Source: a virus. From it: a stretch of 21,084 nt of DNA. The translations under genes were made by a program, and so were the position numbers. A model generated the notes under the pieces. That model ran no database searches. It worked only from the letters and a program-made list of their open reading frames with translations, and was not told the DNA's origin. The stretch lies in IMG/VR virus record IMGVR_UViG_3300010370_000296, positions 1 through 21,084 of that record; one strand, 5' to 3'. Positions 2,087-18,169 of this stretch are shown here, piece by piece (within the stretch, counting starts at the first letter, position 1; the number at the start of each line of letters is the position of its first letter).

Positions 2087-3088
2087 TCATATGATAGGGG
2101 CTAAACCACCTAACGTTTGACCCCAATTTGTTACATAATTTAAATTCTCCGCAATTGCCAAAGGAGCCAATGGACCAGAAGACACATTTGCAGCAGATGC
2201 CCTCTTTATGAAAGTCGTATCCACTTCTGTAAAATAATGGTCTCTTGCCATAAATTGATATGTCTCCACAACCGGCTGCCCACCGGGCGCATAGACTGTC
2301 GACATATTAATTAAATTGACTTCTTGAACAACAATTTTCATTGGAGAACTTAAAGAAGTAGACTTTACAACTCTTTGATTAACATCTGACAACATTGTTC
2401 TAGACAAATTATCTAGGGAGCCATTAAATTCTACATCATTTGTATCTGTTTGAAACAGATTTTTTGGCGACAAAGCCACCTCTTCCATGCCATAAACTAT
2501 AACAAAGTTAAATGGCGGATGAGCGCTAAAAATATTCTTATCAGAATCTAAAACATTTTTAGCAAAAGGGTCTTCTGTGATTCTATCTAATTGGCCCATT
2601 TCCCAATATTTATTCATTAAAGCTTCGTCTTCTTCTGTTTCTAACTGACTTCTTAAATTAGATAATATTCTTCCAGGAGCTCTTTTGTCTGTTGCCAATT
2701 CAGATCTTGTTATTGCAGCTTTTTCTAAAAGATCTGTCATCCTTCTGGGATATCTTGTATATAGGGCGATTTCTCCAGTTATAATTCTGGTACCATACAT
2801 TATGGCATCGTAATTGTACGACCAGAAACCATACAGTGGCTGCTTTTCCTGGCGCACATTAAAAGCAAAAGTTGCTATATCTAATTCATCATCAGGATGG
2901 AACAAACCATCAATAAAGATTCTAATATCTTCTCCGCTGAAATAATAATCATAATAATTACTAAATCTTTTATCGGTATTAGTTCCGCCACTCCAAGTTA
3001 AATCGAGCTTTTCGTTTACAGGATTAAATTCTTTTCTAGCATTATTTGAAAATACCCCCGGCATAACCTGGGCAATTGGTGCTGGCAT
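2087..3088 (-). CDS. Divergent tail-tube-like protein (tube paralogue 3)
   Basis: A 333-residue protein with AAAGG before the ATG. Its core lines up with tubes 1 and 2: YYFSGEDIRIFIDG (48-61) with the FSGAD motif, TFAFNVRQEKQPLYGFWS (73-90) with the SVTREKAPIY motif, RIITGEIALYTRYPR (101-115) with GSLIFTVF, and HPPFNFVIVYG (190-200) with PPFDITITF. A late VQEVNLINMSTVY and TYQFMARD match FGVELLNEG and TYVARE. A charged insert of roughly 70 residues (about 121-190, helical) and a C-terminal extension set it apart. Such tube-fold proteins with inserts occur as tube initiators or baseplate-hub parts; that role is inferred. The tandem order of three related genes indicates duplication. Confidence 0.75.
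   Translation of the reverse strand: MPAPIAQVMPGVFSNNARKEFNPVNEKLDLTWSGGTNTDKRFSNYYDYYFSGEDIRIFIDGLFHPDDELDIATFAFNVRQEKQPLYGFWSYNYDAIMYGTRIITGEIALYTRYPRRMTDLLEKAAITRSELATDKRAPGRILSNLRSQLETEEDEALMNKYWEMGQLDRITEDPFAKNVLDSDKNIFSAHPPFNFVIVYGMEEVALSPKNLFQTDTNDVEFNGSLDNLSRTMLSDVNQRVVKSTSLSSPMKIVVQEVNLINMSTVYAPGGQPVVETYQFMARDHYFTEVDTTFIKRASAANVSSGPLAPLAIAENLNYVTNWGQTLGGLAPII
3060..3073 (-). repeat. Short direct repeat copy 2 (A-Q-V-M-P coding)
   Basis: Second copy of the 14 bases seen at 3123-3136, encoding AQVMP in the N-terminus of tube gene 3 (MPAPIAQVMPGVFSN). Tube gene 2 ends PAQVMPPGRLHL. Confidence 0.7.
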
Positions 3089-3100
3089 ATCTTTACCTTT

Positions 3101-3898
3101 CTATAGGTGTAATCTTCCAGGTGGCATAACCTGGGCTGGAACTGTGGGTTTATTATATTTTGTATTATAATAAGCTGTTTCTTCAGCTTGGCTTTGTAAC
3201 TCAGCAAGATCAGTTATAATCAAATCGCCAAAAACATTTGTACTAATTTGATCCCTAGCCTTCATTTCATCTGTATAAGAAGTATCTCTTGATAAAGTGC
3301 TGTCATTCGGCATTCTTACTAGGGGTTGTATTCCTCTGGCCATGTAAGTGTAGGTCTGCTCTGTAATTAAGTCGTCTACAGATAAAGTTTGGCCTTCGTC
3401 AACTATTGTTACTCCGAATATTTTCATTTTTGAACCGAGACCGTATTCATTGAAAAATGTAATAACAATATCAAATGGCGGCAACATGTCCGCTAGAGGG
3501 GCAAAGTATCCAGTTTTTCTTGCCAGATATTGCTTAAACTCTTTTATTCTATAAAAAGCGTATTCGTTAAATACTGTAAAGATGAGGCTGCCAGCTATAG
3601 TTCTTCCACCCTTAATAAAGCCCCGAACATTAACGTGGCCAAGAGTTCTTACTGGGGAATTTTCTCTGTGGACAGAATATGATATAGTCTGTAACTCTCC
3701 TAGATTTATAGAATCGCCTTGAGACTCAACATTTCCATCTGGACCGATAATAGGCAAAACGATTGTCGCAACAGCGTCTGCCCCAGAGTATGACATTGTT
3801 GATAGATATTTTTCCCAGTCATAAAGGTCATTGCCACTTTGCTGAACTGCTTCTTCTTGTTTACTTTTTCTAAAAGTAAATGTTTTAATTTCTGCCAT
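3101..3898 (-). CDS. Tail-tube-like protein (tube paralogue 2)
   Basis: I start this at MAEIKTFTFRKSKQEE (265 residues), with GGAG 7 bases before the ATG; an upstream ATG at 3943 would begin inside the terminator stem and add a hydrophobic leader of no apparent use. The tube pattern is clear: MSYSGADAVATIVLP (35-49), ISYSVHRENSPVRTLGHVN (72-90), RTIAGSLIFTVFNEY (99-113), LPPFDIVITFFNEYG (139-153), IFGVTIVDEGQ (160-170) and YTYMARGIQPL (183-193). It is homologous to tube 1 by eye over its whole core, with a longer N-terminus and a 60-residue C-terminal extension ending PAQVMPPGRLHL. In contractile tails, extra tube-fold proteins often form the baseplate-proximal tube or hub ring, so that role is likely. 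Confidence 0.78.
   Translation of the reverse strand: MAEIKTFTFRKSKQEEAVQQSGNDLYDWEKYLSTMSYSGADAVATIVLPIIGPDGNVESQGDSINLGELQTISYSVHRENSPVRTLGHVNVRGFIKGGRTIAGSLIFTVFNEYAFYRIKEFKQYLARKTGYFAPLADMLPPFDIVITFFNEYGLGSKMKIFGVTIVDEGQTLSVDDLITEQTYTYMARGIQPLVRMPNDSTLSRDTSYTDEMKARDQISTNVFGDLIITDLAELQSQAEETAYYNTKYNKPTVPAQVMPPGRLHL
3123..3136 (-). repeat. Short direct repeat copy 1 (A-Q-V-M-P coding)
   Basis: GGCATAACCTGGGC on the plus strand, at the end of tube gene 2. The same 14 bases occur 63 bases away at 3060-3073, at the start of tube gene 3, in the same frame. Confidence 0.7.
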
Positions 3899-3917
3899 TA
3901 AAATCTCCAAAAAATAA

Positions 3918-3951
3918 ATAAGTGCATGGAAGATACCTCCCATGCACTTAT
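3918..3951 (-). terminator. Intrinsic terminator between tube genes 1 and 2
   Basis: A perfect 12-base inverted repeat (ATAAGTGCATGG) with a 10-base loop is followed on the minus strand by TTTATTTTTT. The U-rich stretch runs into the ribosome site of tube gene 2 (GGAGATTTT). It would cut expression of the downstream tube paralogues relative to tube 1. Confidence 0.85.
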
Positions 3952-3971
3952 TCTGGCGACACTAAAAATTA

Positions 3972-4634
3972 TCAGGGTCTAATAATTGTTGTATTCAATC
4001 CTTCAGGTGGTATTCCTACCAAGTTGGTTGGATCAACAAGAGTGTCATTTCTAATTGTGTACATGGGACCAAGTTCACGAGCAACATAGGTCATAGTTTC
4101 TTCAATGACAATGTCGTCCATGGAAGCGCCAGAACCTTCGTTAAGAAGCTCTACGCCGAATATTGATCTGACAGCTGCCTGACCATACTCATTGGCAAAT
4201 GTTATAGTAATGTCAAATGGTGGAATTTGGTCAGCGTAGAAAGGAACCTTTTTTACAACGCCAGTCTTCTGTTCGTTGACATCAGCAATACCTCTTCTAT
4301 GACCATTGTCGCCAGGAAGTGTATTGTGGCTTCTAGTGTAGAAGTCCATTGGTCTATTTTGCGAATAGTTCTGATCTAACATCTTATATAGAGCTGGACG
4401 ATCAAATACTGTGAAAATCAATGAACCAGCTATACCTCTTTTGCCTCTTGAGAAAGAGCGAGGATTGGGTGATCCCATGGTGTAGATTGGAGCCTTTTCT
4501 CTAGTGACGGAGAAGGTGATACCCGAAAGCGCACCTATTTCCACTCCACCAAATGTAGCTACAATGTCTGCACCTGAGAATGTGGTATAAGTATTAAGAT
4601 ACTTATTTACTGATGTATATTCCTCTGCGGCCAT
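3972..4634 (-). CDS. Tail tube protein (tube paralogue 1)
   Basis: A 220-residue protein with a very strong ribosome site (AGGAGGG, 9 bases before ATG). It has the tube-type beta-barrel pattern: TTFSGADIVATFGGVEIG (17-34), ITFSVTREKAPIYTMGS (39-55), RGIAGSLIFTVFDRPAL (66-82), IPPFDITITFANEYG (137-151), IFGVELLNEGSG (158-169) and MTYVARELGP (181-190). This order directly after sheath 2 fits the main tail tube, which forms the rigid inner conduit for DNA. Two paralogues follow. A hairpin terminator lies just after its stop, so this gene is separated transcriptionally from the next ones. Relatively G/C-rich codons fit abundant expression. Confidence 0.82.
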   Translation of the reverse strand: MAAEEYTSVNKYLNTYTTFSGADIVATFGGVEIGALSGITFSVTREKAPIYTMGSPNPRSFSRGKRGIAGSLIFTVFDRPALYKMLDQNYSQNRPMDFYTRSHNTLPGDNGHRRGIADVNEQKTGVVKKVPFYADQIPPFDITITFANEYGQAAVRSIFGVELLNEGSGASMDDIVIEETMTYVARELGPMYTIRNDTLVDPTNLVGIPPEGLNTTIIRP

Positions 4635-4662: not shown

Positions 4663-5925
4663 TTATAGATTAATGGCTACTCTGACTTCGATCTCTTTGA
4701 GTTCGAAGGCAGGTGTTAAAATGAGGTCTACAATCGCCTTGTTTTCATTTGGTATGTACGAGACTGTAAAGTCACTACCAAGCAGGGCTCCTACAATTTG
4801 CATTCCTCTCAAGCCAGAAGTGATTGCTGTCTCCATCGCATTTCTTGTTTGAATGTTTGATGGTTCGCCAACAAATCTCTGGCAGGCTTGTCTTACAACT
4901 GATGTGGCGTCGTCTATGATTCTCTTTGTTGAGAGACGGGTATAGTCCGATGTTGCCCAACCAAATGTTAAACCTTCTCCGAATACTGGAATCTTATTAA
5001 AGTTAATGACAACAGTATTAACACCCTTAGCAGCGAGAGCAGCCTGCTGAGTTCTAGAAGGAGCATAACGAACAGCCTCTACATTGTAGAGAGCCTTATT
5101 TACTAGTGAACTATATGAAGGAAGCAAGCTTAAAGCGCCAGCAACATGAGCGGCGCCGTTAGCGTAACCAAACTCTGTTGTTCCAGACTGATAGTTTACG
5201 GGCTTGATTTCCGCAGCGACTACAACCACATATGGGCCAACTTCCTTGAAGGAAGCGCTAGCATTTCTGTCGGGAAGATCTGTCAGTGCCAAATGTGTAG
5301 AAACTTGACCAGGAGTCATAGTTTCTGTTGTTGAATAGTATGGACTAACTCCCATGATTGCGATGCAAGGGTTGATGTTTTCAGAAATATCCTTCACCTT
5401 TGCAGCTACCTGATAGGCCCAGTTGCTTGATACGGTTGACGTATTGTCTGCAACGAAGCCAATTTTTGCGTCATCGCTGGGCGTAGCTGGGCTCTGCCAA
5501 TCGTCTGGGTGAGCGCCTCTTCCCCAAGGAATAATAATGTCGGGAATAGCAGCTTCTGCTGCAATAAAGGCAGCGTCGAAAACCGAGCCACCATAACTTA
5601 CGCTAGTTACAGTTCCAGTGGCTGCAGGGCTATCCGTATCAGTGTCCCACTTTGTATCAGAAGGAAGTGGTACAATATAAATTCTTCCAGCTCCAGCCAA
5701 AACTAGCTCTAGATATGCACGGTGAGCGTCTGATCCATCTCCAAAAGCGGTGATTACATCAGCCTCGTTAGTTACTCTTACAACGTCAAGATCTGCTACT
5801 GAACCAGTATTGTTAGCCGTGCTACGACGTGCTATCGCTACTATTCTAGGACCAACAGGTGTATCCTGACGCGACACACTGTAGAAGCGATCTCTAATTA
5901 ATGTTTTTACTCCAGGTATAGCCAT
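4663..5925 (-). CDS. Tail sheath protein 2
   Basis: A 420-residue sheath-like protein with GGAGG before the ATG. The N-terminus (MAIPGVKTLIRDRFYSVSR) is of the type that links sheath subunits. Residues 26-85 (GPRIVAIARRSTAN, ADVITAFGDGSDAHRAYLE, AGAGRIYIVPLPSD) and 130-260 follow the sheath core, with NGAAHVAGALSLLPSYSS (256-273) and ALAAKGVNTVVINFN (296-310). The C-terminal part (RIIDDATSVVRQACQRFVGEP, GMQIVGALLGSDFTVSYIPNENK) is the family's interlocking domain. It is shorter than sheath 1, lacks its Ig-like domain, and is richer in G+C, suggesting it is the abundant sheath. It lies directly upstream of the tube genes, the usual sheath-tube pairing. Confidence 0.85.
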   Translation of the reverse strand: MAIPGVKTLIRDRFYSVSRQDTPVGPRIVAIARRSTANNTGSVADLDVVRVTNEADVITAFGDGSDAHRAYLELVLAGAGRIYIVPLPSDTKWDTDTDSPAATGTVTSVSYGGSVFDAAFIAAEAAIPDIIIPWGRGAHPDDWQSPATPSDDAKIGFVADNTSTVSSNWAYQVAAKVKDISENINPCIAIMGVSPYYSTTETMTPGQVSTHLALTDLPDRNASASFKEVGPYVVVVAAEIKPVNYQSGTTEFGYANGAAHVAGALSLLPSYSSLVNKALYNVEAVRYAPSRTQQAALAAKGVNTVVINFNKIPVFGEGLTFGWATSDYTRLSTKRIIDDATSVVRQACQRFVGEPSNIQTRNAMETAITSGLRGMQIVGALLGSDFTVSYIPNENKAIVDLILTPAFELKEIEVRVAINL

Positions 5926-5963
5926 ATTGGTTTCAATCCTCCAAATAATAAACTTTTTTGAAT

Positions 5964-5978
5964 CTTCAGTTATAGTAA
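5964..5978 (-). promoter_or_regulatory. Divergent TACTAT-type element upstream of sheath 2
   Basis: The minus strand reads TTACTATAACTGAAG in the 112-base gap before sheath 2, resembling the TTACTATTAAAATAG element at 13704 and 17334 but 47 bases from the start rather than about 31. A TTGTTT lies 18 bases before TATAAC, so an ordinary sigma-70 promoter is also possible here. It fits a gap preceding highly expressed tail genes. Confidence 0.35.
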
Positions 5979-6037
5979 CACATAACTTATAAAAACAACT
6001 ACAAAGTTAAACTGGCAGGATTTTTCTATACACCATT

Positions 6038-6901
6038 TCAGACGTTAGGGGTTGCAGTCTGGAATAGATCGATAATATTTCCAGTTGTACCCTCATAATT
6101 AGGGGTAGCTAACTGATCTCTAAGCAACTGCTTTTCGTATGCCATCCAGGTTCTGGCGTCAACTGAAATCTTCTCAATTCTTCTATTGGATATTGCAAAC
6201 GTCTTTTCTGTAGTTAACATATATGTAACAGTTCTTTTATGAACATCTTTTCCTTCACGATTAATCTCGGAATCAGACAAACGTCTAGAATAGACTAATT
6301 CAGACGCTCCGGCGGATTTGAAAATTGATGTATATTCCAACATGAAATCTTCAAATGCCTCAATTACTTGATCGCACAAAACTGCTGCATCTAGATCATC
6401 CCTAGTTGTGGCGCCATTAGTGCCCTGAAAAGTTCCAACTTTAGACATGACAGTAAAACCAACAATATTTTGAAAACGTTGGCCATAAATAGTCACTGTG
6501 TTAGATAGCACATTTTGTCTCATTCTTGGCTTTGGCTCTGTTGTATGAGCCTTTCTTAACTCTAAGTGATATCCTATGATTGCAGGGAACTCATCAAGGC
6601 CAACATAGGTTGAAGACGGGGCAGAAGAGAGATCTCCAGAAGTAACGTCGGTTCCACCATTATCTTTATAGGTTACAGAAGTTTCTCTATTTACACTTAG
6701 TGGCAATATTGGTATTGCTGGATAACTTTCTTCCCAAAGTTTTTTAACTAAAGTGATAAAATCTAAATAACTTAAATTACCAGAATATACTTCCTCTACA
6801 CCATCTTGATCTAATCTTCTATATCCAGGGGCTTGAAGCTGAGGATAACCATATCTAAGGTTTTCTGAAAAACTAGGAAAATCTCTATTAATGTATGCCA
6901 T
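6038..6901 (-). CDS. Probable tail terminator or neck protein
   Basis: A 287-residue protein starting 1 base after the sheath 1 stop; its ribosome site AGGAGC is made of sheath 1's last Gly-Ala codons. A hydrophilic N-terminus is followed by YSGNLSYLDFITLVKKLWEESYP, then a helix-strand region (IIGYHLELRKAHTTEPKPRMRQ, TVTIYGQRFQNIVGFTVMSKVG) and DQVIEAFEDFMLEYTSIFKSAGASELVYSRRLSDSE with HKRTVTYMLTTEKTFAI. The fold pattern and position between two sheath genes fit a tail terminator or sheath-collar protein, whose ring caps the finished tail and joins it to the head. No diagnostic motif was recognised, so this is position-led. The downstream gap holds a possible promoter. Confidence 0.65.
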   Translation of the reverse strand: MAYINRDFPSFSENLRYGYPQLQAPGYRRLDQDGVEEVYSGNLSYLDFITLVKKLWEESYPAIPILPLSVNRETSVTYKDNGGTDVTSGDLSSAPSSTYVGLDEFPAIIGYHLELRKAHTTEPKPRMRQNVLSNTVTIYGQRFQNIVGFTVMSKVGTFQGTNGATTRDDLDAAVLCDQVIEAFEDFMLEYTSIFKSAGASELVYSRRLSDSEINREGKDVHKRTVTYMLTTEKTFAISNRRIEKISVDARTWMAYEKQLLRDQLATPNYEGTTGNIIDLFQTATPNV

Positions 6902-6902
6902 A

Positions 6903-8498
6903 TCAAGCTCCTGGACCAGCTGCTAAAGAAAAGTTAATCTTTTTAATAGCAAAATATGATATTAATTCAATATCAAAAATTAATTTTTCCTTTGTTGTAT
7001 CAGAAAATCTTGCATTAAAAGAATAATCTAGTATAGCTTTATTAGTTTTTAAATATTGTAAATATTTTTTAGTATCATCTATAATACTGTCAAATGCTAG
7101 CAAATCATGACCAGAAGCTGCTATTCCCTTAATTTCGCTAACAACTGCAGCAACTAGTCTCATTTGAAAGAGCTTGCTAAACACAGATTCCCCATGGGCC
7201 ATAGTGTACTCATTGGTAACATATATCTCAAAAGGAACAGCTCTTCTGGTTTTTCTTCCCCTATAGACAGTGTTCACTCCTATAGCTTCTAATCTCTCAT
7301 AATCTGAATATGTTAAATCTGTCCCAAATAAAGATAGCGCTCCTGGCACTCTAGTGCGAATAATTGCCTTAGCTTGCTGATTCGCTGCGATCATGCCAGC
7401 GTATGCTGCTGCGGCACTGGAGGTATAGCTAATTTTAATTTGTGGATGCTGAAAAACTAATTCGCCATAAATCGGAACCACGTATCTACCTTTATCAGAC
7501 GCTATTTGGCCATCTAGATAAGTAGTGAATTTATTAGTAAATAATGGATTAGCTTCCAAAATAGATATGTCCGAAGACTTTACTCCATCAGATCTTGAAC
7601 CAATAACTCCCATCTGAATAAAGCCAGTAGAATTATGAAAAGAAGAACAGTAATTAGCCAATTGAGTAACAAAATCTACTCCACCAGTATTCATAATACT
7701 AGCTTCTAATGGAACTACAATATCAACAAAATCTAAATCAATTATATCTGCATATGCTTGCTCTAGGCGGTCATAGTATCTTTCGTAGAAAGTGCTTTGA
7801 GTACCTGGCGTAGCGTCGTTAATAGAGAATACTGTCGTAGATAAGTTTCTTTGAGCGTAGCTGTCAACATATTCCGACATTGGAGCGACAGCGCAAATCA
7901 TAATATCTCTAGCCCCACATGAATAGGCGTCTAAGACTCCTCTCAAAAGAGGGCTATTTGTATTGGCGCCCATCAAATCAACTGCATGTTGAATCGAATT
8001 AATTCTAATAGGATAGTTTAATCTCATGCCGTCAGCGTGACCAAGCAATAATATTGTGCTTGTGTTTCTTCTATCTAACTGCTGATAGGTTGGCTTATAG
8101 TTGACGACAGATGATTTTGGTGAAGTTATTGTTACCGAAGAAACAGATGTTACAGAATTTTTTACCTGAAAAGTCGCTGTAGCGTTTATGTTTTGCGCAG
8201 TACTGCTTGTTCTGGCTATTATTGTGTAAACATATTCATATAAATTTTCTGGAACTTTATATGTAAAGGTGTACTCGCCAACTGCTGATCTGACTATTGA
8301 ATTATCATTTTCATTTCCATTATCTAGAAGAAGGGAGAATGGACCATCAATTACGGGGCCAGAACCAGTGTCGCCTCTTAATACATAAACTACAACATCT
8401 ACTGGAGTAGAAAGATTTGCTGGATCATAGATAGATCCATCATAGTCTGTAAAAATAAATTTAAATTGTGCCGTCTGACCTTTTGATAAAACTATCAT
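6903..8498 (-). CDS. Tail sheath protein 1 with N-terminal Ig-like domain
   Basis: A 531-residue protein. Residues 1-115 form an Ig-like beta domain (KGQTAQFKFIFTDYDGSIYDP, SIVRSAVGEYTFTYKVPENLYEY), comparable to the connector's N-terminus. Residues about 145-530 follow the contractile sheath pattern: STILLLGHADGMRLN, RDIMICAVAPMSEY, the Ala-rich SYTSSAAAAYAGMIAANQQA (358-377), LEAIGVNTVYRGRK (403-416), and a C-terminal domain (FDSIIDDTKKYLQYLKTNKAI...IFDIELISYFAIKKI) that joins neighbouring subunits. A sheath contracts to drive the tube through the host envelope. The ATG is 1 base after the previous stop, with AGAGAAG before it. It shares GVNTV and the Ala-rich helix with sheath 2 but carries the extra domain. 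Confidence 0.83.
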   Translation of the reverse strand: MIVLSKGQTAQFKFIFTDYDGSIYDPANLSTPVDVVVYVLRGDTGSGPVIDGPFSLLLDNGNENDNSIVRSAVGEYTFTYKVPENLYEYVYTIIARTSSTAQNINATATFQVKNSVTSVSSVTITSPKSSVVNYKPTYQQLDRRNTSTILLLGHADGMRLNYPIRINSIQHAVDLMGANTNSPLLRGVLDAYSCGARDIMICAVAPMSEYVDSYAQRNLSTTVFSINDATPGTQSTFYERYYDRLEQAYADIIDLDFVDIVVPLEASIMNTGGVDFVTQLANYCSSFHNSTGFIQMGVIGSRSDGVKSSDISILEANPLFTNKFTTYLDGQIASDKGRYVVPIYGELVFQHPQIKISYTSSAAAAYAGMIAANQQAKAIIRTRVPGALSLFGTDLTYSDYERLEAIGVNTVYRGRKTRRAVPFEIYVTNEYTMAHGESVFSKLFQMRLVAAVVSEIKGIAASGHDLLAFDSIIDDTKKYLQYLKTNKAILDYSFNARFSDTTKEKLIFDIELISYFAIKKINFSLAAGPGA

Positions 8499-8499
8499 T

Positions 8500-8871
8500 T
8501 TACTTCTCTCTTGTAGCGCCCACGACCCAATAGTCTATCTTACCCATGCGTCCCCTCATTGCAGTAACAGCGTCTACTGTAAACATGGTGTAATTTTTAT
8601 TTACTTTTAAAGAAAAATTTTCGTATATTCTGTCGCCCTCTTTTGGATTAATGTGGTCTTCAAAATAATAGACTGCATCGTATTTTGTAAACAAACCATC
8701 TTGGGCCTCTGTGGTGGATAGCGAATTGCTTATTCCAGATTGACCAACTTGTCGAGTTGTAACTCTTTCGAATTTGCTTGAATGATTACCATTTGATAAT
8801 ATTCTTTGTATATAAACATCATGGCCCCATTCTCGAAGAACTTTTTTAAAACTTCTTTTTATATCAATCAT
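8500..8871 (-). CDS. Probable head-closure or neck protein
   Basis: I start this at MIDIKRSFKKVLREWGHDVY (123 residues), overlapping the connector gene by 8 bases; an in-frame ATG 11 codons earlier is possible but lies deeper inside that gene. The ribosome site is weak (GAGG, 11 bases away), which fits coupled translation. The sequence, a helix with REWGHDVYIQRIL then strands with DAVYYFEDHINPKEGDRIYENFSLKV and a closing KIDYWVVGATREK, has the small beta-barrel look of head-closure (stopper) proteins, which seal the portal after packaging. Order connector, closure, sheath supports this. No diagnostic residue is available, so the function is inferred. Confidence 0.68.
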   Translation of the reverse strand: MIDIKRSFKKVLREWGHDVYIQRILSNGNHSSKFERVTTRQVGQSGISNSLSTTEAQDGLFTKYDAVYYFEDHINPKEGDRIYENFSLKVNKNYTMFTVDAVTAMRGRMGKIDYWVVGATREK

Positions 8872-9766
8872 ACTTCTTGAAACCTCTTCTTGGCATGGGG
8901 TCATCTTGAGGTGGGACGCTTCTTCCTGGGCCGTACAATTCTCTATCCGACAAGTAAACTATTTTGCCAGTTTCCACTTCTGGAATCTTGCCTGAAGTCA
9001 CTGGGAGCCCTCCGCTGGGCAGATTCTTCATTTGGAAACCCTTTGGGCCCACTTTTCCAGCTAATATTTCTTTTCTTAAAGAAGCAGCTATTTGACACCA
9101 TGTCGTTGCGTTATCTCTGGTCACCTTCGCTCTTGGCACTGATCTATTAGTTAGCGAAAAATCACCCAAACGAACAGAAACCTCATCATCTCCACCAAAT
9201 CCATAAGTCCTACTAAGCTCACATGCTACTGATGCCTTAATGTATTCCAATACAGTAAAAGATAAACCAGAGCCATCCTCTTCGTCCAGAAGATTATATA
9301 AAGCCTTAACTTCATTAGAGTAATTGTGCACTATTTCGCCTATCTCCAATAAAGAAGCATCTGGAAAATACGGGATTAGTTCTTCCGGATCTAAATATAG
9401 CGGAGTAACATCTGGTGCAAAAATAATTGTTTCATCAGATTTCAGGGTTATTGTTGGCTGATATTCTGTGACCGTTGAGCTAACATACAATTTTTGCTCA
9501 ACAACAACCGAGTTGCCACTACTTAAAGTTCCGGTAAATTTAACAGAATACGTATCTGCAGAAGATGCCGTAAAATCATATATGTAAACAGAAGAAGAAC
9601 TAGCAGTAGCATTACCAGATTCAACTATGCTGCCTGCTGAATTTTTTATAACAACAGTTACAGGTGGAACTGGAGATAGGTCAACTTCATTACCTGAAGT
9701 GTCTATATCTTTAAACTTAACCGTTATTCTGACTGTATCATTTATTACAATTCTGTCTGTAGACAT
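8864..9766 (-). CDS. Head-tail connector with N-terminal Ig-like domain
   Basis: A 300-residue protein. Residues 1 to about 100 form a beta sandwich of Ig type (DTVRITVKFKDIDTSGNEVDL, VVIKNSAGSIVESGN, DTYSVKFTGTLSSGNSVVVEQKLYV), of the kind also seen at the start of phage baseplate upper proteins. From about 120 on it looks like a head-tail connector (adaptor): TPLYLDPEELIPYFPDASLL, then helices with FTVLEYIKASVACELSRTYGFGG and VRLGDFSL. Such adaptors dock under the portal ring. The last 60 residues are Gly/Pro/Arg-rich and probably extended. Ribosome site AAGGGG. The stop overlaps the next gene by 8 bases. An Ig-like domain on the first sheath protein two genes downstream suggests a shared add-on. 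Confidence 0.68.
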   Translation of the reverse strand: MSTDRIVINDTVRITVKFKDIDTSGNEVDLSPVPPVTVVIKNSAGSIVESGNATASSSSVYIYDFTASSADTYSVKFTGTLSSGNSVVVEQKLYVSSTVTEYQPTITLKSDETIIFAPDVTPLYLDPEELIPYFPDASLLEIGEIVHNYSNEVKALYNLLDEEDGSGLSFTVLEYIKASVACELSRTYGFGGDDEVSVRLGDFSLTNRSVPRAKVTRDNATTWCQIAASLRKEILAGKVGPKGFQMKNLPSGGLPVTSGKIPEVETGKIVYLSDRELYGPGRSVPPQDDPMPRRGFKKYD

Positions 9767-10257: not shown

Positions 10258-12148
10258 TTCCACAATCTATAGTTATTCCATCAATTGAACCACCAGTAAT
10301 GGAAACATTATTGGAGTTTTGTGTAGCAATTGTTCCTAATCCTAGAGTTGTTCTTGCAGCAGATGCGTCTGCATCATCGACTAGTGATCTACCAAAGCTA
10401 GTAAACGTTGCCAATGAAGCTGTTCCGCTACCAGTAAAATATGGAAGCTTATCAGCTGCGGATGTAAGACCAGCAATAGCTGCCAGCTCCGCATCATAAG
10501 CTTGAACGTCTGTGTTAATTGCTAAGCCAAGATTTGTTCGAGCAGTCGCAGCGTCTGTAGCTCCAGTTCCACCTTTATTTACAGCTATTGCTGTAGCGCT
10601 CCAGGTTCCAGTTGTTATTGTTCCAACTGAAGTTAAACTTGAGCTTACAACATTTGAACCAAGTGTTGTTGCGTTAAGAACGCTTGTACCATTTATATAA
10701 TATGCCTTACCGGTTGCTAAATCCATATTTTCTGATGAGGTCCAGGCAGCAGTTGAGCTAACCCAGTTGAATGTTTTGTCTACATCGGCTCCAGCTTCAA
10801 CTGTGATTCCAGCTCCATCTGCAGTAGTATTATCGGGTGATCCGACATTTGCTAAAACAATATTTTTGTCTTCCACAACTATTGTAGAAGTTTCAAGGGT
10901 TGTAGTATTTCCTTGAACAGTTAAATCTCCCGTAATAATTAAATTATCATCAACAGTAACTGTGCCGCCAGCAGAATCAATTGTAAGATTTCCGCTACTA
11001 GTGTCAATTTCATTCGCTCCTGTTACACCAATTTTAATATTATCTGCTGTAACTCCAGCAAATGTTGGACTATCTGTAGTTCCAACTGCTTGACCAATGG
11101 CGATTGTTGCGTCGGAACCCTCGCCAGGTGTGTGTGTAATAGTTACTCCAGTTCCAGCGGTTACGCCTGACATATAGTTGCCAGTAGTATCCGTCCCTAA
11201 AGCAATAGTGCCAAGTAGTGCTAGTGTTCCAGTTGCGTCTGGAAATGTTAGAGTTCTATCTGCTGTAGGATCTGTAACAGTAAAAGTTGTCTCATAGTCG
11301 TTTGCTGTTGCGCCTTCAAAAATAATTGAAGCGCCATTGATCGTTAGACCCCCAAAGGTTGGGCTATCTGTAGTCCCTACTGCCTGGCCAATAGCAATCG
11401 TTGCACTAGAAGCCTCTCCAGGCGTGTGCGTAACAGTAACACCAGTACCAGCAGTGACGTCCGACATGTAGTTGCCGGTAGTGTCCGTGCCAAGAGCTAT
11501 TGAGCCCAGCAGCGCGACTGTTCCAGTAGCATTTGGGAGTGTTATTGTCCTGTCCGCTGTGGGGTCAGTAACCGTTAGTGTCGTTTCGTAGTCATTTGCG
11601 GTGGCGCCTTCAAAAATAATACTTGCACCATTTATTGTCAAGCCAGCAAATGTAACTGAATCAGAAATGCCAACTGCTTGTCCAATAGCTAAAGTTAAAG
11701 TATCTGTAGCAGATACAGTAGCAGTTACGCCGGTACCGCCAGTAACTGTCAACGTATTTCCATCGTCTATTGACTGAGAATTTGTCCCATCAGAAATATT
11801 AAAATTATAGCTTGCTGCAGTTATCGCAGAATCTACATATGCTGTTGTTGCGACTGCAGTGCTGTTATTGCCTGCTGTTTGGGTGGTGGCTGTTGCAGAA
11901 GAGCCTAGTGCGACAGTGCCTGAAAATGTTTTATTTCCAGTAATAGTTTGATTAGTACCAAGCGTAGTAAATGCCCCAGATCCAGCTATTGCTGGAATAG
12001 TTGTTGCATCACCGCTGCCGTTATCTCCAAAGCCATAGTAAAGAATATTGTCTGCTTCATTATAGGCTAACTCTGCGTTTTTCAACGAAGATGGCGCACC
12101 GCTTGACCCAGTGCTTGCTCTTCTTTTTATTCTAAGTGTATTTGCCAT
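10250..12148 (-). CDS. Fibre protein with tandem repeats
   Basis: A 632-residue fibre-type protein. The N-terminus (LRIKRRASTGSSGAPSSLKN, then AELAYNEADNILYYGFGDNG) is a conserved virion-attachment type segment of many phage fibres. Residues 60-150 hold stretches such as NQTITGNKTFSGTVALGS. Residues 155-252 and 253-350 are two tandem 98-residue units, 84 of 98 positions identical, and the first 10 or so residues of a third follow. Then come a beta-rich shaft (NLTIDSAGGTVTVDDNLIITGDLTVQGNTTTLE) and an end with TSFGRSLVDDADASAARTTLGLGT and SITGGSIDGITIDCGTF. No chaperone or enzymatic tip domain is visible, so the receptor tip may be another gene product. The TGA stop lies in a hairpin that also holds the next gene's ribosome site. 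Confidence 0.85.
   Translation of the reverse strand: MANTLRIKRRASTGSSGAPSSLKNAELAYNEADNILYYGFGDNGSGDATTIPAIAGSGAFTTLGTNQTITGNKTFSGTVALGSSATATTQTAGNNSTAVATTAYVDSAITAASYNFNISDGTNSQSIDDGNTLTVTGGTGVTATVSATDTLTLAIGQAVGISDSVTFAGLTINGASIIFEGATANDYETTLTVTDPTADRTITLPNATGTVALLGSIALGTDTTGNYMSDVTAGTGVTVTHTPGEASSATIAIGQAVGTTDSPTFGGLTINGASIIFEGATANDYETTFTVTDPTADRTLTFPDATGTLALLGTIALGTDTTGNYMSGVTAGTGVTITHTPGEGSDATIAIGQAVGTTDSPTFAGVTADNIKIGVTGANEIDTSSGNLTIDSAGGTVTVDDNLIITGDLTVQGNTTTLETSTIVVEDKNIVLANVGSPDNTTADGAGITVEAGADVDKTFNWVSSTAAWTSSENMDLATGKAYYINGTSVLNATTLGSNVVSSSLTSVGTITTGTWSATAIAVNKGGTGATDAATARTNLGLAINTDVQAYDAELAAIAGLTSAADKLPYFTGSGTASLATFTSFGRSLVDDADASAARTTLGLGTIATQNSNNVSITGGSIDGITIDCGTF
11099..11392 (-). 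repeat. Fibre repeat unit 2 (98 codons)
   Basis: Encodes residues 253-350, from IGQAVGTTDS to GSDATIA; a truncated third unit (IGQAVGTTDSPTFAGV) follows at lower coordinates. In a roughly 70-base stretch I compared by eye the DNA differs from unit 1 at about 20 sites, mostly synonymous. Confidence 0.9.
11393..11686 (-). repeat. Fibre repeat unit 1 (98 codons)
   Basis: Encodes residues 155-252 of the fibre, from IGQAVGISDS to ASSATIA. It is followed directly by unit 2 with 14 amino-acid differences. Its codons are visibly more G/C-ending than those of unit 2. Confidence 0.9.
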
Positions 12149-12909: not shown

Positions 12910-13682
12910 CACGGACCAACTTCTGAAGAAACAATTACCCTATATTTATATCCAGACTCAAAATATGTTTTACCATCTGTAGCATAAACTGGCGTTGCGT
13001 CATCAGATGGAAAATCTACATAGACATCTGCTCTCCATGAGTGCATTGATACTTGTGCATCAACAGATTCCCATCTAGAAGGTGTTTTTTGTATCTTCTT
13101 TCTTTGAGCCTTAAAATACTTTGAAGTTAAAAAGTTTGATGCGGGACGGGAACTAAAGTTTATTGTAACTCTTCCATTGTTTTCGTCATTATTTAAATAG
13201 AAACTGCCGGTTGAAGGATCTGTTGAAATAATATAAAAGTCTGGATTTTTTGCTAATATTTGATAACCAGTTTCTATATCAACTCGAACTGACTTGTCTT
13301 CAATGAGAACTTCATTAAGAACAGTTCCCTGAGTCTCCTGCAGAACTGATGGAGTAGCTGAATTTGTTTGGCTAGTAAAACTGATTTGCTCTTGCGGTAC
13401 AGTAAGACCAGAGGAATCAACTAAATTAGAAACTTTTACAATATAATCTGAATTAGAAGAAAGTACAACATTCCAATAAAGAGTTAAAGTTCTACTGATT
13501 TGATTATAATCTGTTATTGTATTTATTGTTCTAAAAGGAGAACTAATTTCAACTGGCGTTGCAGTGTCTGTAAAAAGGGCAAAATTTGCATTAACTAATG
13601 ATGCTATTTTTATTGTTCTACCAAATTTAATATTAACTGTATTAACAGTTACGGTAGCGTTGTCTATCAGATACAAGCTCAC
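12909..13682 (-). CDS. Structural protein with Ig-like domain
   Basis: A 257-residue protein starting at GTG, with GGAG 8 bases upstream. Residues 1 to about 105 match the pattern of a bacterial Ig-like domain of the SbsA type: NTVNIKFGRTIKIASLVNANFAL, a linker, LTLYWNVVLSSNSDYIVKVSNLVDSSGLTVP and a closing strand ISFTS. The second half holds more beta strands (YIISTDPSTGSFYLNNDENN) and a Trp-containing stretch (SMHSWRADVYVDFPSDD). There is no signal peptide. It opens the unit after the capsid terminator and its stop overlaps the next gene (TGATG). Ig-like domains in phage virions usually decorate heads or tails and bind surfaces or sugars; a virion surface role is likely, the exact site unknown. 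Confidence 0.65.
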   Translation of the reverse strand: MSLYLIDNATVTVNTVNIKFGRTIKIASLVNANFALFTDTATPVEISSPFRTINTITDYNQISRTLTLYWNVVLSSNSDYIVKVSNLVDSSGLTVPQEQISFTSQTNSATPSVLQETQGTVLNEVLIEDKSVRVDIETGYQILAKNPDFYIISTDPSTGSFYLNNDENNGRVTINFSSRPASNFLTSKYFKAQRKKIQKTPSRWESVDAQVSMHSWRADVYVDFPSDDATPVYATDGKTYFESGYKYRVIVSSEVGP

Positions 13683-13703
13683 TCAACACACTCCATCAAT
13701 AAA

Positions 13704-13720
13704 ATCTATTTTAATAGTAA
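13704..13720 (-). promoter_or_regulatory. Promoter-like element after capsid terminator (TACTATTA type)
   Basis: The minus strand reads TTACTATTAAAATAGAT between the capsid terminator and the next gene's start, ending 21 bases before the GTG at 13682. The same 17 bases occur at 17334-17350 at the same distance from a start codon. Placement directly after a terminator is what a promoter restarting transcription would show. Confidence 0.62.
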
Positions 13721-13744
13721 TAAACAAAACAGAATAAAAGCAGA

Positions 13745-13772
13745 GGGGGTGGCGGATTTCTCCACCACCCCC
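13745..13772 (-). terminator. Intrinsic terminator after major capsid gene
   Basis: A 12-base stem (GGGGGTGGCGGA on the plus strand) pairs with its partner around a 4-base loop. The single mismatch on the plus strand (C-A) becomes a G-U pair in minus-strand RNA, and a U-rich stretch (TCTGCTTTTATTCTGTTTTG) follows on the minus strand, so it terminates transcripts coming from the capsid gene. Its stop codon is 46 bases upstream. Confidence 0.88.
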
Positions 13773-13818: not shown

Positions 13819-14877
13819 TCAGGTTGCCTCGTTAGTAACCATGACTTCATAGTTACGGCTGAGTCTGACGTTCTTGGCTACGGTAATACCCTCGCCATCG
13901 CCGAGCATTACGATGTCGTAACGCTCCTTCATCTTAAGTGAACGAAGGTCACGGCTAGGATCGTCAAACTGATCGGTGCTCATGTCATCCTTGACCAAAA
14001 GTGTTCCCACTTCGTTACGGTCAATGAGGAATAGGTCTGACTTAGCTGCTGTTGCGCCACTCTTAGCGGTGAAGCTTACGAATGGTGAAACAAGAACGTT
14101 TAGACCCATTGGGGCTGTTGCGTTAAGGGCGCCGTCAGCTGACTGCGGACGATATCCCCAGCTTGTGCCAACTCCTGAAGCTGCACCACCGGCGTGGAAG
14201 ATGGAATCCTTAAGGAATACCGACCACATGAGGGGGTGGAGAATAAAGTCTGTTGGTACATGATTTTCAGCCATAAGTACAGCAGCCATGTCTACAATGT
14301 CGTCCCAGGTGATTGTCTTATTGGCAGCGCCATTAATGTCAAGACCTGTTGTGTCATCATATGAACCGCTATCGTTATCAAAAACGATAGTAGCTGCATC
14401 CTTGAAGCGACTAAGAGCGATTTGCTCTTTTAGGCGAGCCATAGCGCGACCGGCTGCGCGAACATGTAGACCGACAATGTCCCAAAGTGAGTCAGCGATA
14501 ACTTCCTCGGTGAAAGCTAGCTTTACACCTTTCTTTGAAACCTTGCCCTCTACCTGCTTTGCGAAGGCGAGTGCTTGCTCTGGATATTCTTGGCCTTCTG
14601 GAATCTCAGCCGCTTGGATAGCATTGACTGCTGGGAACTCCAAAGAACGCCCCTTACCGAGACGAACTGTGGAAAGCAGGGGGGTCACAAGAAGCTGTGG
14701 CTCAGCTGCTTCTCTTAGCGTACGAGAGAGAACCTTGGGGAAAAGGGCTGCTGCATCTGGTGAAGCAAAAGCCTCCTTAATGGTTACTCTGTTGTCTGCA
14801 TCGATATACCCGTCCTCAGTCAGTGCAGTCTCCCAAGCTGGGAGACCAGAGAGGAGCTCTTGGATTGTCTTACTCAT
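13819..14877 (-). CDS. Major capsid protein (HK97 fold)
   Basis: A 352-residue protein with the look of an HK97-fold capsid subunit. The N-terminal arm (1-70) leads into the probable E-loop with RSLEFPAVNAIQAAEIPEGQ (about 76-95), then a spine-helix region, a P-domain helix (VRAAGRAMARLKEQIALSRF), a strand and turn region with ITWDDIVDMAAVLMAENHVPTD and ILHPLMWSVFL (A-domain), and a C-terminal part with DRNEVGTLLVKDDM and LKMKERYDIVMLGDGEG typical of the fold. The gene is visibly richer in G+C than its neighbours, consistent with strong expression. Upstream is AGGAGG, 12 bases from ATG, with a small palindrome AGGAATATTCCT between them. A strong terminator follows the stop. It forms the icosahedral shell. 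Confidence 0.9.
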   Translation of the reverse strand: MSKTIQELLSGLPAWETALTEDGYIDADNRVTIKEAFASPDAAALFPKVLSRTLREAAEPQLLVTPLLSTVRLGKGRSLEFPAVNAIQAAEIPEGQEYPEQALAFAKQVEGKVSKKGVKLAFTEEVIADSLWDIVGLHVRAAGRAMARLKEQIALSRFKDAATIVFDNDSGSYDDTTGLDINGAANKTITWDDIVDMAAVLMAENHVPTDFILHPLMWSVFLKDSIFHAGGAASGVGTSWGYRPQSADGALNATAPMGLNVLVSPFVSFTAKSGATAAKSDLFLIDRNEVGTLLVKDDMSTDQFDDPSRDLRSLKMKERYDIVMLGDGEGITVAKNVRLSRNYEVMVTNEAT

Positions 14878-16446: not shown

Positions 16447-17313
16447 GCTATGAGTCTCCTCAGAATTATTTTTTTCAGAATCTTCATTGGATAGTAATGA
16501 ATTAGCATTACTTATATAACTTTCACTTTCCTGAAGGGCCAACGCAGTTAAAAATGCGCCCTTTAAATGTAAGTAAATGGGTTTCGATTCCTTCTTCTTC
16601 ATATCAGAAAGAATTGATCTATTTTCCTCAATTGAAATAATATCTTCATTATCCATGCTGAGGACAAACGCAGCGCTTTTTGCAATCCAACCTTCAGAGT
16701 CTGAGATTTCTGTTTTCCCATCTTGCATTTTTGTGGATCTCACTCCGGATTTTTGATCTGCCGGCTGATTTACAAAAGAGTATTCCTTGAAGGAAATATC
16801 CTGCATATCAATGTATGCTAGCTTGCCTTTGTAAACCTTGCCCTTTTTAAACTTGGGCATACGGGGACGACCTGAGTCATCTTCTCTCGCTAGATCTTCA
16901 CCAGAAATACTACAAACAGCTTTTGTAGCCCTTCCTCCAACCGAACCCGTCAAGTATCTCTTATCGATAACCTTTTGGGCTGCAACAGGATCAGTGATTG
17001 CAATTTGCAATCTAACAAAAGCGCTTCCATCTGACTCTTTGTCCATCTTGGCAGCCATTACCCTGCCAATAGGCTCTGTATTTAAGTCATGATTAAGAAT
17101 AATTGGCTTTGGATAAGGCTCAACCCATGATTGAAGTGCCTTCTCTAACTCTATGGCTGAATAATGATTATAATTAGAAGTCAAGCCCTCGTGTATTGCG
17201 GCGACCTCTATAATCAAGCCGTGCCTGGAGTTAAATGATTCTGAAAAATCTATATCTGATTTTGAAAAATCAGGAAGCTGTAATGTAAAGTTTTCTACAA
17301 AATCAAAAGACAT
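15700..17313 (-). CDS. Capsid maturation protease with C-terminal scaffold-like domain
   Basis: A 537-residue protein. Residues 1 to about 190 look like a herpesvirus-assemblin type prohead protease: HEGLTSNYNHYSAIELEKAL (41-60), PIILNHDLNTEPIGRV (70-85) with candidate His75, YLTGSVGG (120-127) with candidate Ser123, and FKEYSFVNQPAD (175-186), the usual closing motif of the domain. Residues 280-400 are extremely rich in Glu, Ser and Asp. Residues 405-435 form a probable coiled coil (LKARIKLLEEENAKLKSALH), and the end (NSFEQVLVDALMGRRKL) is basic, as in scaffolds that bind the capsid shell. The protein would cut scaffold and capsid precursor during head maturation while its tail acts as scaffold. 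Start: GGGG 5 bases before ATG. A probable internal start lies at 16446. Decoration and major capsid genes follow directly. Confidence 0.82.
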   Translation of the reverse strand: MSFDFVENFTLQLPDFSKSDIDFSESFNSRHGLIIEVAAIHEGLTSNYNHYSAIELEKALQSWVEPYPKPIILNHDLNTEPIGRVMAAKMDKESDGSAFVRLQIAITDPVAAQKVIDKRYLTGSVGGRATKAVCSISGEDLAREDDSGRPRMPKFKKGKVYKGKLAYIDMQDISFKEYSFVNQPADQKSGVRSTKMQDGKTEISDSEGWIAKSAAFVLSMDNEDIISIEENRSILSDMKKKESKPIYLHLKGAFLTALALQESESYISNANSLLSNEDSEKNNSEETHSMKDVNKEEDILAVAEGLSEDLSNIAASSSEEPSATTDEKVVEEASEEKTEEVSEESVETGSEEENSADDSEEADVQTVDSENAEKPEESSVEKTDESQEDAEEASELSDNKEGVEQDADTLKARIKLLEEENAKLKSALHRTLVERVVDTKVGLGLESVDDREKLIEEHASRTAASLADSLRDLAKVPAKVGKRLSSFFSVPEVTSEAEVAEEVNVLTVDKAEVQTPVSPVNSFEQVLVDALMGRRKL

Positions 17314-17333
17314 GTATTCCCCTATTTATTAAT

Positions 17334-17350
17334 ATCTATTTTAATAGTAA
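17334..17350 (-). promoter_or_regulatory. Promoter-like element upstream of capsid protease (TACTATTA type)
   Basis: The minus strand reads TTACTATTAAAATAGAT, identical over all 17 bases to the element at 13704-13720. It ends 20 bases before the ATG at 17313; the other copy ends 21 bases before its start codon. It lies in the 76-base gap after the glycosyltransferase, one of the few real gaps in the cluster. I infer a promoter for the protease, decoration and major capsid unit. Confidence 0.6.
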
Positions 17351-17389
17351 GTTTGTTTTTATAACATTGAACAATTTTATATAAATATA

Positions 17390-18169
17390 TCACACTTTAG
17401 TATAGTTTTCAAATATTAGCGCTGATCTTTCATCCCCGTGCTTTAAAAATGACCCATACATTAACTCAGACATTATGTGTGGAGCATAGATGTATGAAGC
17501 GCAGAATAAATTATAACCAGCCTCTTTACACTCCCATGACCAGCCTACATCCTCACCTTGCTCATGGACGCTGTAGTCTATATTTGAATATACCTTCTTG
17601 TTCATCATTTTTGCAGCCATGATTACGTCAGATTTAAAATAAGTTCCAAGAGAATACTTTTCCTGTCTAAATGCTTTTCTAGTCATACCTTCTCTCCATG
17701 TCATCACACTCGGATACATTGTACCGAAAGGAGTCATGAACATGAGAGGATTAACTGCGTCAGCACCGGACTTAATATGTGCAATTAACAGCTCTAAAGT
17801 ATTTGGATTTGTTAATAATATATCAGAATCTAAGCTAAAGTAGTATTCTGGAGAAACATCTCTAACAGTAGAGAGCAAAGAGTTTCTTAAGGAAACCATA
17901 TTTTGATACTTAGACAATGTCCACTGTCTTCCATTGTTTTCATGCTGAAAGTGTGGTATATCTTTTCTTATGTTTATATTGAAATAAGGTATCCTATTAT
18001 CGTATTTTTTCCATGCCTCTAAAGATTGGATTGTTTCAGTATCATCTGGAGAAACCTCAAAAACAAAACCAATATCTTCAATAGGAAGAGACTGATTAAC
18101 GATACAGCGAATCCAATGAGGTAATATCCAAGATCTCTTGTACATTGGACATCCTATTAGAAGTTTCAT
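17390..18169 (-). CDS. GT-A fold glycosyltransferase (GT2-like)
   Basis: A 259-residue protein with the layout of a GT-A nucleotide-sugar transferase. The first strand is LLIGCPMYKR (3-12), followed by a helix and the second strand GFVFEVSPDD. RNSLL (95-99) precedes the DxD-type metal site DSD (114-116) in YYFSLDSDILLTNP. A GEDVGWSW stretch (205-212) supplies the ED pair expected near the catalytic base, and APHIM (229-233) contains a histidine where such enzymes place a metal ligand. There is no membrane helix or signal peptide, so the enzyme is cytoplasmic. The ATG overlaps the preceding stop (ATGA). Set between portal and capsid protease genes, it may glycosylate a virion protein such as the capsid, decoration or fibre protein, or a host component; substrate and sugar cannot be read. 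All key residues appear intact. Confidence 0.8.
   Translation of the reverse strand: MKLLIGCPMYKRSWILPHWIRCIVNQSLPIEDIGFVFEVSPDDTETIQSLEAWKKYDNRIPYFNINIRKDIPHFQHENNGRQWTLSKYQNMVSLRNSLLSTVRDVSPEYYFSLDSDILLTNPNTLELLIAHIKSGADAVNPLMFMTPFGTMYPSVMTWREGMTRKAFRQEKYSLGTYFKSDVIMAAKMMNKKVYSNIDYSVHEQGEDVGWSWECKEAGYNLFCASYIYAPHIMSELMYGSFLKHGDERSALIFENYTKV

Follow-up and report, generated by a model that had tools for sequence, protein, structure and literature searches.

Introduction

Bacteriophage PaBG is said, in a 2018 study by Kurochkina, to have a two-component tail sheath. Its two sheath proteins, gp76 and gp213, are 38% identical and both are present in the structural proteome (PMC7412058; this and the other papers given here by accession are cited from extracts of their text). 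Vibrio phage Pv27 has two annotated sheaths (PMC12063606). Among injection systems, Afp has the sheath proteins Afp2, Afp3 and Afp4 together with several tube proteins (PMC12961389), and BIS has Sheath1 and Sheath2, also with several tube proteins (PMC7394362). The collar protein gp13 of phage Milano is an external, sheath-like protein that joins the tail sheath and the neck; it is jellyroll-like and 15-fold (PMC10491603). Moorella phage MTATph1 (CDS0017 and CDS0019) and Bacillus phage KLEB27-3 (gp023 and gp025) each display two annotated tail sheaths with one gene between them, and three tube-like genes follow. Both multi-sheath machines and the paired sheath annotations of MTATph1 and KLEB27-3 in GenBank are already known. 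The locus described here is in the virus record IMGVR_UViG_3300010370_000296, a 21-kb sequence whose full 21,084 nucleotides are termed the window. It carries two sheath-type genes, termed A (420 amino acids, aa) and B (531 aa), with one gene (X287) between them. We regard it as marginally probable that A is the bulk contractile sheath and B a low-copy ring of sheath fold that serves as an anchor or collar at the end nearest the head.

The sheaths of MTATph1 and KLEB27-3 are related to A and/or B, with very diverged sequences. In MTATph1 the tube-like genes are assigned by similarity and one small gene lies among them; for the neck genes on either side in KLEB27-3, the match is by annotation order only. 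PaBG is similar in that two sheath proteins are present in one contractile phage. However, gp76 and gp213 are clearly similar to each other, whereas A and B show no meaningful BLASTP alignment (best E-value = 0.92) and have one gene between them; A and B are thus not a PaBG-type pair of clearly similar sheath proteins. The two sheath open reading frame numbers of Pv27, compared by annotation, are far apart. Afp and BIS have several sheaths per machine, as here, but are injection systems and not phages. Milano gp13 can be likened to B as a link between sheath and neck, but gp13 is jellyroll-like and B has a sheath fold. Literature searches on two, minor and collar sheaths, 0305phi8-36, KLEB27-3, MTATph1 and Afp/Pvc yielded no account of this arrangement, which is not proof that none exists; PMC6357053, PMC4870245 and PMC10194406 are among the papers without bearing on it. 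The deep divergence of the pair, its position in a neck cassette, and the asymmetry in expression and constraint were not found in the literature searched.

Sheath fold of A and B

The original prediction, made from the nucleotide sequence, proposed that two open reading frames both encode tail sheaths. Both open reading frames are present on the minus strand and whole (Table 1), and profile searches, family alignments and predicted structures show both products to be sheath-like.

The A sequence matches five tail-sheath PHROGs, the best being phrog_16991 (E-value = 4.8e-20). The match to Pfam Phage_sheath_1C (15.7 bits) is under the cut-off of 26.9, a PF04984 search of the window gave zero matches, and the A1 profile yielded no sheath match among PDB sequences. 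The AlphaFold model of A has a mean predicted local distance difference test (pLDDT) score of 74.9 and contains low-confidence stretches. It matches the R-pyocin sheath 3j9q_A (Foldseek 1.5e-10; VIA Z 26.1, root mean square deviation (rmsd) 3.2 over 314 residues). With both the profile match and the modelled fold present, A is classed as a contractile tail sheath protein.

A search of Pfam, PHROGs and NCBIfam with the single B sequence gave no sheath match. Homology to sheaths is seen via family profiles only: hhalign of the A and B families gives a probability of 94.4 (E-value = 8.6e-8, 334 columns, 17% identity), and phrog_279 (tail sheath) is matched by 6 of 27 B-family members (best 9e-14), the window B not being among these. 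The AlphaFold model of B has a mean pLDDT of 80.8, with a poorly modelled linker. Its best Foldseek row is 9gts_2A (1.8e-12; template modelling (TM) score 0.46 on the query and 0.66 on the target), and with 6j0n_V it gives a VIA Z of 29.6 (rmsd 4.9, 333 residues). The A model matches the same solved sheath chains in Foldseek and VIA. Neither predicted structure lacks the sheath core, and by its model and family profiles B has the sheath fold. The landmark proposed earlier as shared by the two proteins is present as LAAKGVNTV in A and LEAIGVNTV in B. A chance likeness is ruled out because GVNTV is in register in the alignment of the two family profiles.

An N-terminal immunoglobulin (Ig)-like domain had also been proposed as a difference between the two proteins. 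Residues 1–115 of B are nearly all beta in the model. The Foldseek list for B includes the Ig-superfamily rows titin, VISTA and PD-1 (6e-5 to 1e-3); since this list has no ranges, it is by inference that these rows are assigned to residues 1–115. Copying of this domain from the neighbouring gene N300 is unsupported (hhalign probability 0.6). One relative (L045, positions 5410–9024) has a B version of 1205 aa, the longest B open reading frame, with ~650 extra residues within the Ig-like domain. The insertion partly matches phrog_5313 (function unknown), has zero Pfam matches, and looks lectin-like by eye.

That B could be a damaged duplicate is ruled out for the window, where both open reading frames are whole, and B is retained in the relatives sampled. 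Split open reading frames are found in a few relatives, i.e. B in L048 and L049 and X in L067 and L077.

Co-occurrence and gene order

A search for other phages with both genes had been suggested, and the pair is kept across the lineage sampled. In an initial survey of 85 sources (84 loci and the window), 82 have a B-family gene (E-value ≤1e-3); the other three are the named records L082–L084. All 61 loci newly found with an A query (L021–L081) have B. The pooled set contains 83 distinct A genes with 3.5 kb or more of upstream sequence each; B is upstream of 81 of them, and 79 show the strict order S134-B-X-A. The two A genes without B belong to MTATph1 and KLEB27-3, where a further annotated tail sheath of the phage's own lies upstream with one gene between. 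Conversely, A is found for all 80 distinct B genes for which 3 kb or more of downstream sequence is available. The pool was partly recruited through B and hence is not blind to B; the 61 loci found with A are blind. Two later scans that entered the pool cover the best 80 of 179 and the best 80 of 168 relatives. Six hand-picked large contigs (169–210 kb) have one A and one B each. A tblastn search of 50,697 phage records with A and B gave only MTATph1 and KLEB27-3 (for B, E-values of 0.02 and 0.8). A profile search of genome contigs with the A family found zero relatives, and thus a host was not found.

In Acinetobacter phage ME3, of which 36 kb was covered, one sheath is annotated. Directly ahead of it, with nothing between, are gp027 and gp028, which match the PHROGs of S134 and X287 (gp028 matches phrog_20284 at 6e-5), and thus the B slot is empty in ME3. 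A phmmer search with X did not find gp028, the link being through the shared PHROG alone.

Alignments contain 29 of 31 non-redundant A rows (L065 and L066 omitted) and 27 of 30 B rows (L045, L059 and L063 omitted); L045 was also omitted from the X287/Ig comparison. In a tree with 12 A and 13 B rows plus five named-phage sheaths, support is 100 for the B group and 66 for the A group. The named sheaths have supports of 34–52 and cannot be placed, so that the A/B split is undated. Profile scores of the MTATph1 and KLEB27-3 sheaths against A and B are mixed and do not settle a single origin with the A/B split.

Sequence conservation

Mean pairwise identities over 25 loci are 80.5% for T220 (the first tube gene), 65.4% for A, 61.4% for T280, 57.8% for N300, 56.5% for X287, 54.5% for S134, 52.2% for T333 and 46.6% for B. 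Identity is higher in A than in B in 296 of 300 locus pairs. The distribution within the two proteins is shown by their parts. The N-terminal arm of A (residues 2–22) has 80.3% identity, its C-terminal arm 73.3% and its core 64.2%. The corresponding values for B are 29.4% for the linker/arm, 37.9% for the Ig domain, 47.7% for the core, 48.3% for the C-terminal strand (residues 517–527) and 54.9% for residues 514–531. The linker alignment is less sure because this segment carries insertions in some relatives. The missing A-like N-terminal arm would fit a B subunit with no need to mesh through that arm.

Codon usage and predicted expression signals

Codon usage was scored against the phage's own capsid gene. 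Window scores are 0.604 for A and 0.614 for T220, and 0.491, 0.511, 0.479 and 0.467 for B, X287, S134 and N300, respectively. The A–B gap was reached in none of 5000 redistributions of synonymous codons between A and B, and B is no different from X287 (4188 of 5000 shuffles) or N300 (1096 of 5000). The A score exceeds the B score in all 22 loci with a recognised capsid gene. The first chaperone-like gene has a mean score of 0.602 across loci.

A promoter-like block is present upstream of A (Table 1). In its two-part form (TTTTTATAA / [GA]TTACTAT[AT]) it precedes A in 71 of 78 distinct loci. TTACTATA precedes A in 72 of 78, in all but one at 43–60 bases ahead of the ATG; base shuffles of the upstream stretches gave TTACTATA in 20 of 1560. 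The segment TTACTAT is found within 140 bases upstream of A in 69 of 74 cases and of N300 in 36 of 77, where it may start an N-S-B-X unit. Counts for the other genes are 2/79 (B), 1/77 (X287), 0/81 (S134), 0/69 (T220), 2/68 (T280), 0/74 (T333) and 0/24 (capsid). In the six large contigs the strict block (0 mismatches) is present once in four and absent in two. Two other intergenic stretches of the window, at positions 13682–13740 and 17313–17370, contain TTACTATTAAAATAGAT, perhaps a variant of this promoter-like element.

S134, B and X287 abut or overlap (≤6 bases apart). The X–A spacing is 78–119 bases in 21 of 22 loci and 56 in one, whose A start was probably called too early; open reading frame starts were called mechanically.

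Downstream of T220 there is a terminator-like hairpin. Of 46 distinct stretches after T220, 45 contain a helix of at least 10 bp (mean z −5.69), as do 18 of 19 after the capsid gene; the counts after A, B, X287 and T280 are 0/41, 1/46, 5/46 and 3/53. Stretches with z < −3 number 46 after T220, 18 after the capsid gene, 1 after A, and 0 after B, X287 or T280. In the window a stable 12-bp G+C-rich hairpin (positions 13745–13772) is directly 3′ of the capsid gene. The called start of T280 is inside the T220 hairpin (positions 3898–3943), and the ATG at 3898, after the hairpin, is probably the likelier start.

Given the codon bias, the block before A and the hairpin after T220, A and T220 look like one strongly expressed unit, apart from B, with the promoter and terminator being predicted elements. 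The original prediction that the shorter, more G/C-rich sheath is the abundant one is supported by codon usage, transcription-unit layout and divergence rates.

Neighbouring genes

The long structural open reading frames of the window are on the minus strand. Their order is portal, a weakly protease-like gene (phrog_18299, E-value = 0.013), capsid, fibre-like genes, N300, S134, B, X287, A, three tube-like genes, two chaperone-like genes and the start of the tape measure gene. Table 1 lists the principal features.

Table 1. Positions of genes, protein segments and predicted signals in the window.
Feature	Position	Strand	Basis
A, major tail sheath, 420 aa	4663..5925	−	PHROG sheath profiles; model match to 3j9q_A; raised codon bias
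A N-terminal arm, residues 1–22	5860..5925	−	most conserved of three A parts measured; pLDDT <50 at 1–22 in monomer
A C-terminal arm, residues 406–420	4666..4710	−	identity higher than in core
B, second sheath-fold protein, 531 aa	6903..8498	−	hhalign to A family; Foldseek; VIA
B N-terminal Ig-like domain, residues 1–115	8154..8498	−	nearly all-beta in model; Ig rows in Foldseek; insertion site in L045
B linker/arm, residues 116–142	8073..8153	−	least conserved B part measured; pLDDT <50 at 116–139
B sheath core, residues 143–513	6960..8072	−	hhalign; AlphaFold model; Foldseek; VIA
B C-terminal arm, residues 514–531	6906..6959	−	strand at 517–527
X287, probable tail terminator between B and A	6038..6901	−	phrog_20284, virion structural protein, 2.2e-11
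S134, stopper/head-completion-like neck protein	8500..8904	−	phrog_38102, 2.3e-4; also matched by ME3 gp027
N300, adaptor-like neck protein	8864..9766	−	position; weak, sub-threshold Ig-like rows in Pfam
T220, main tail tube, probably co-transcribed with A	3972..4634	−	most conserved of eight genes; A-like codon usage
T280, second tube paralogue	3101..3943	−	same PHROG as T220; mutual similarity
T333, third tube-like gene	2087..3088	−	matches third KLEB27-3 tube gene, 1.6e-7
Capsid gene	13819..14877	−	–
Promoter-like block GTTTTTATAAGTT-N4-GTTACTATA upstream of A	5971..5996	−	sole exact site in window
Terminator-like hairpin after T220	3916..3953	−	17-bp stem

X287, S134 and N300 appear to be neck-type genes. 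The terminator C-terminal arm inserts into the top sheath ring in Milano (PMC10491603) and in phiCD508 (PMC11948020). In A-1(L), each sheath subunit uses its domain II to grip the N- and C-tails of subunits from the next ring; the initiator acts as a mimic of domain II, and the terminator finishes the sheath by way of a hairpin (PMC10966104). In 23 of 24 aligned loci X287 has, beyond a variable linker, an [IV]DL motif at its C-terminus (L042 departs). This type of ending would suit a terminator, which is the probable role of X287. S134 would have a stopper-like role. N300 gave zero PHROG matches and is taken as adaptor-like.

T220 and T280 share a PHROG match, the best one for T220, whose label is major head protein. 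They are read as tubes because their KLEB27-3 relatives are annotated as tail tube and the capsid gene is elsewhere; with a capsid gene at 13819–14877, the PHROG label is taken as a mislabel. There are three tube-like genes in a row (positions 2087–4634), and raised codon bias together with very high conservation is seen only in the first. The second and third may thus be tube ends or initiators made in low copy.

The two genes between the tube-like genes and the tape measure gene (positions 859–2047) are presumed chaperone-like from their position. They are separate, non-overlapping open reading frames that both match phrog_29362 (3.3e-8 and 0.0043), and they are perhaps a duplicated chaperone pair. 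A 259-aa gene at 17390–18169, between the portal-side genes and the protease-like gene, has a weak Anp1-type match (E-value = 3.5e-4, below the cut-off); Anp1 is a glycosyltransferase family. Inside the 632-aa fibre-like gene, positions 11059–11646 consist of two tandem 294-base copies that are 75% identical.

Discussion

The proposed arrangement is as follows. The bulk sheath A would polymerise with the tube T220, and B would be a minor sheath-fold protein. B, in few copies, may make up one ring or a few where the sheath ends towards the head, beside the stopper and terminator, and would there anchor the sheath to the neck. The Ig-like domain of B would face outward and could carry extra modules. 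For scale, roughly 500 copies of A are estimated from the 2060-aa tape measure open reading frame of L021, scaled by phage G (2893 aa for 450 nm; PMC8570332) and a ring rise of 36–39 Å (PMC11948020, PMC10966104), against an assumed 6–24 copies of B. The copy number of B is inferred from proxies and its position mainly from gene order: a low-copy head-proximal ring is favoured because the B gene is between the stopper-like gene and X287. B may instead be collar-like, placed around the neck.

Several points weigh against this arrangement. Gene order is not position in the virion. The loci are all related, so that the counts are not independent trials. The capsid gene does not have TTACTAT, and this element is therefore not a general mark of strong expression; high codon scores are also found elsewhere in the window, in a 256-aa gene beside the capsid gene (0.659) and in a fibre gene (0.552). 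The C-terminal strand of B, taken alone, is level with its core in identity. In A-1(L) both tails of one ring enter domain II of the ring beside it (PMC10966104), so that an A-type N-terminal arm might be expected in a simple last ring; B has no such arm and may thus not be an ordinary last ring. No relation between the Ig-like domains of B and N300 can be demonstrated. The best VIA rows of B include the baseplate entries 6j0n_V and 9qgl_4A of extracellular contractile injection systems (eCIS), tied with others and common to A.

These VIA rows bear on the main rival, which we consider unlikely: B would be the first, baseplate-proximal sheath ring, like a minor eCIS sheath subunit, and A would grow on top of it. 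The top rows (6j0n_V, Z 29.6; 9qgl_4A, 29.0; 6rao_E, 28.2) are sheath chains in baseplate entries, and Afp with three sheath and three tube proteins (PMC12961389) may be compared with the two sheath and three tube-like genes of this phage. However, rows that differ by no more than 1 Z count as ties, A has matches to these chains too, and B is among neck-type genes and does not adjoin the tape measure gene. Somewhat less likely again is that B is a sheath-derived, non-contracting neck collar, or an assembly factor absent from the virion. The poorly conserved N-terminal arm of B and its gene position between the stopper-like gene and X287 agree with this, as does the sheath-like collar of Milano, which has another fold and joins sheath to neck (PMC10491603). 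But B retains a recognisable sheath core and is found in every IMG/VR relative sampled, and thus a sheath-type role has likely been kept.

The original prediction offered three roles for the second sheath: a collar ring, alternation with the first in a mixed sheath, or a second tail zone. Gene order favours the first of these, as a collar or terminal ring. Alternation and an extended second zone would both call for many copies of B, which codon, transcription and rate data speak against. The related proposal that B is a minor subunit mixed throughout the sheath, or makes up a second zone as in a PaBG-like two-component sheath, seems to us the least likely of the alternatives. Both PaBG sheath proteins are in the structural proteome, as described above (PMC7412058), which speaks for it. 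Against it, the PaBG pair shows 38% identity and A and B lack a meaningful BLASTP alignment; A and B are also separated by codon usage, transcription units and arm conservation, and the 1205-aa form of B in one relative would be hard to repeat along a tail.

The low-copy, head-proximal ring can be put in a wider form, which we hold more tentatively and at somewhat less than an even chance. A sheath protein may have turned into a dedicated neck component. It would retain a true sheath fold, form a ring or collar in low copy that secures a long contractile sheath at its head-proximal end, and bear Ig-like domains, with lectin-like ones in one relative. Its conservation would extend over a large group of phages, most of them uncultured.

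More study of sheath anchor points is urged in a paper on phage G (PMC8570332). In our judgement, the way in which a contractile sheath stays fixed at the neck as its remainder slides is known in detail for only a few phages. A conserved second sheath-fold protein among neck-type genes would offer a genetic handle on sheath anchoring, also in KLEB27-3 and MTATph1, which have named hosts.

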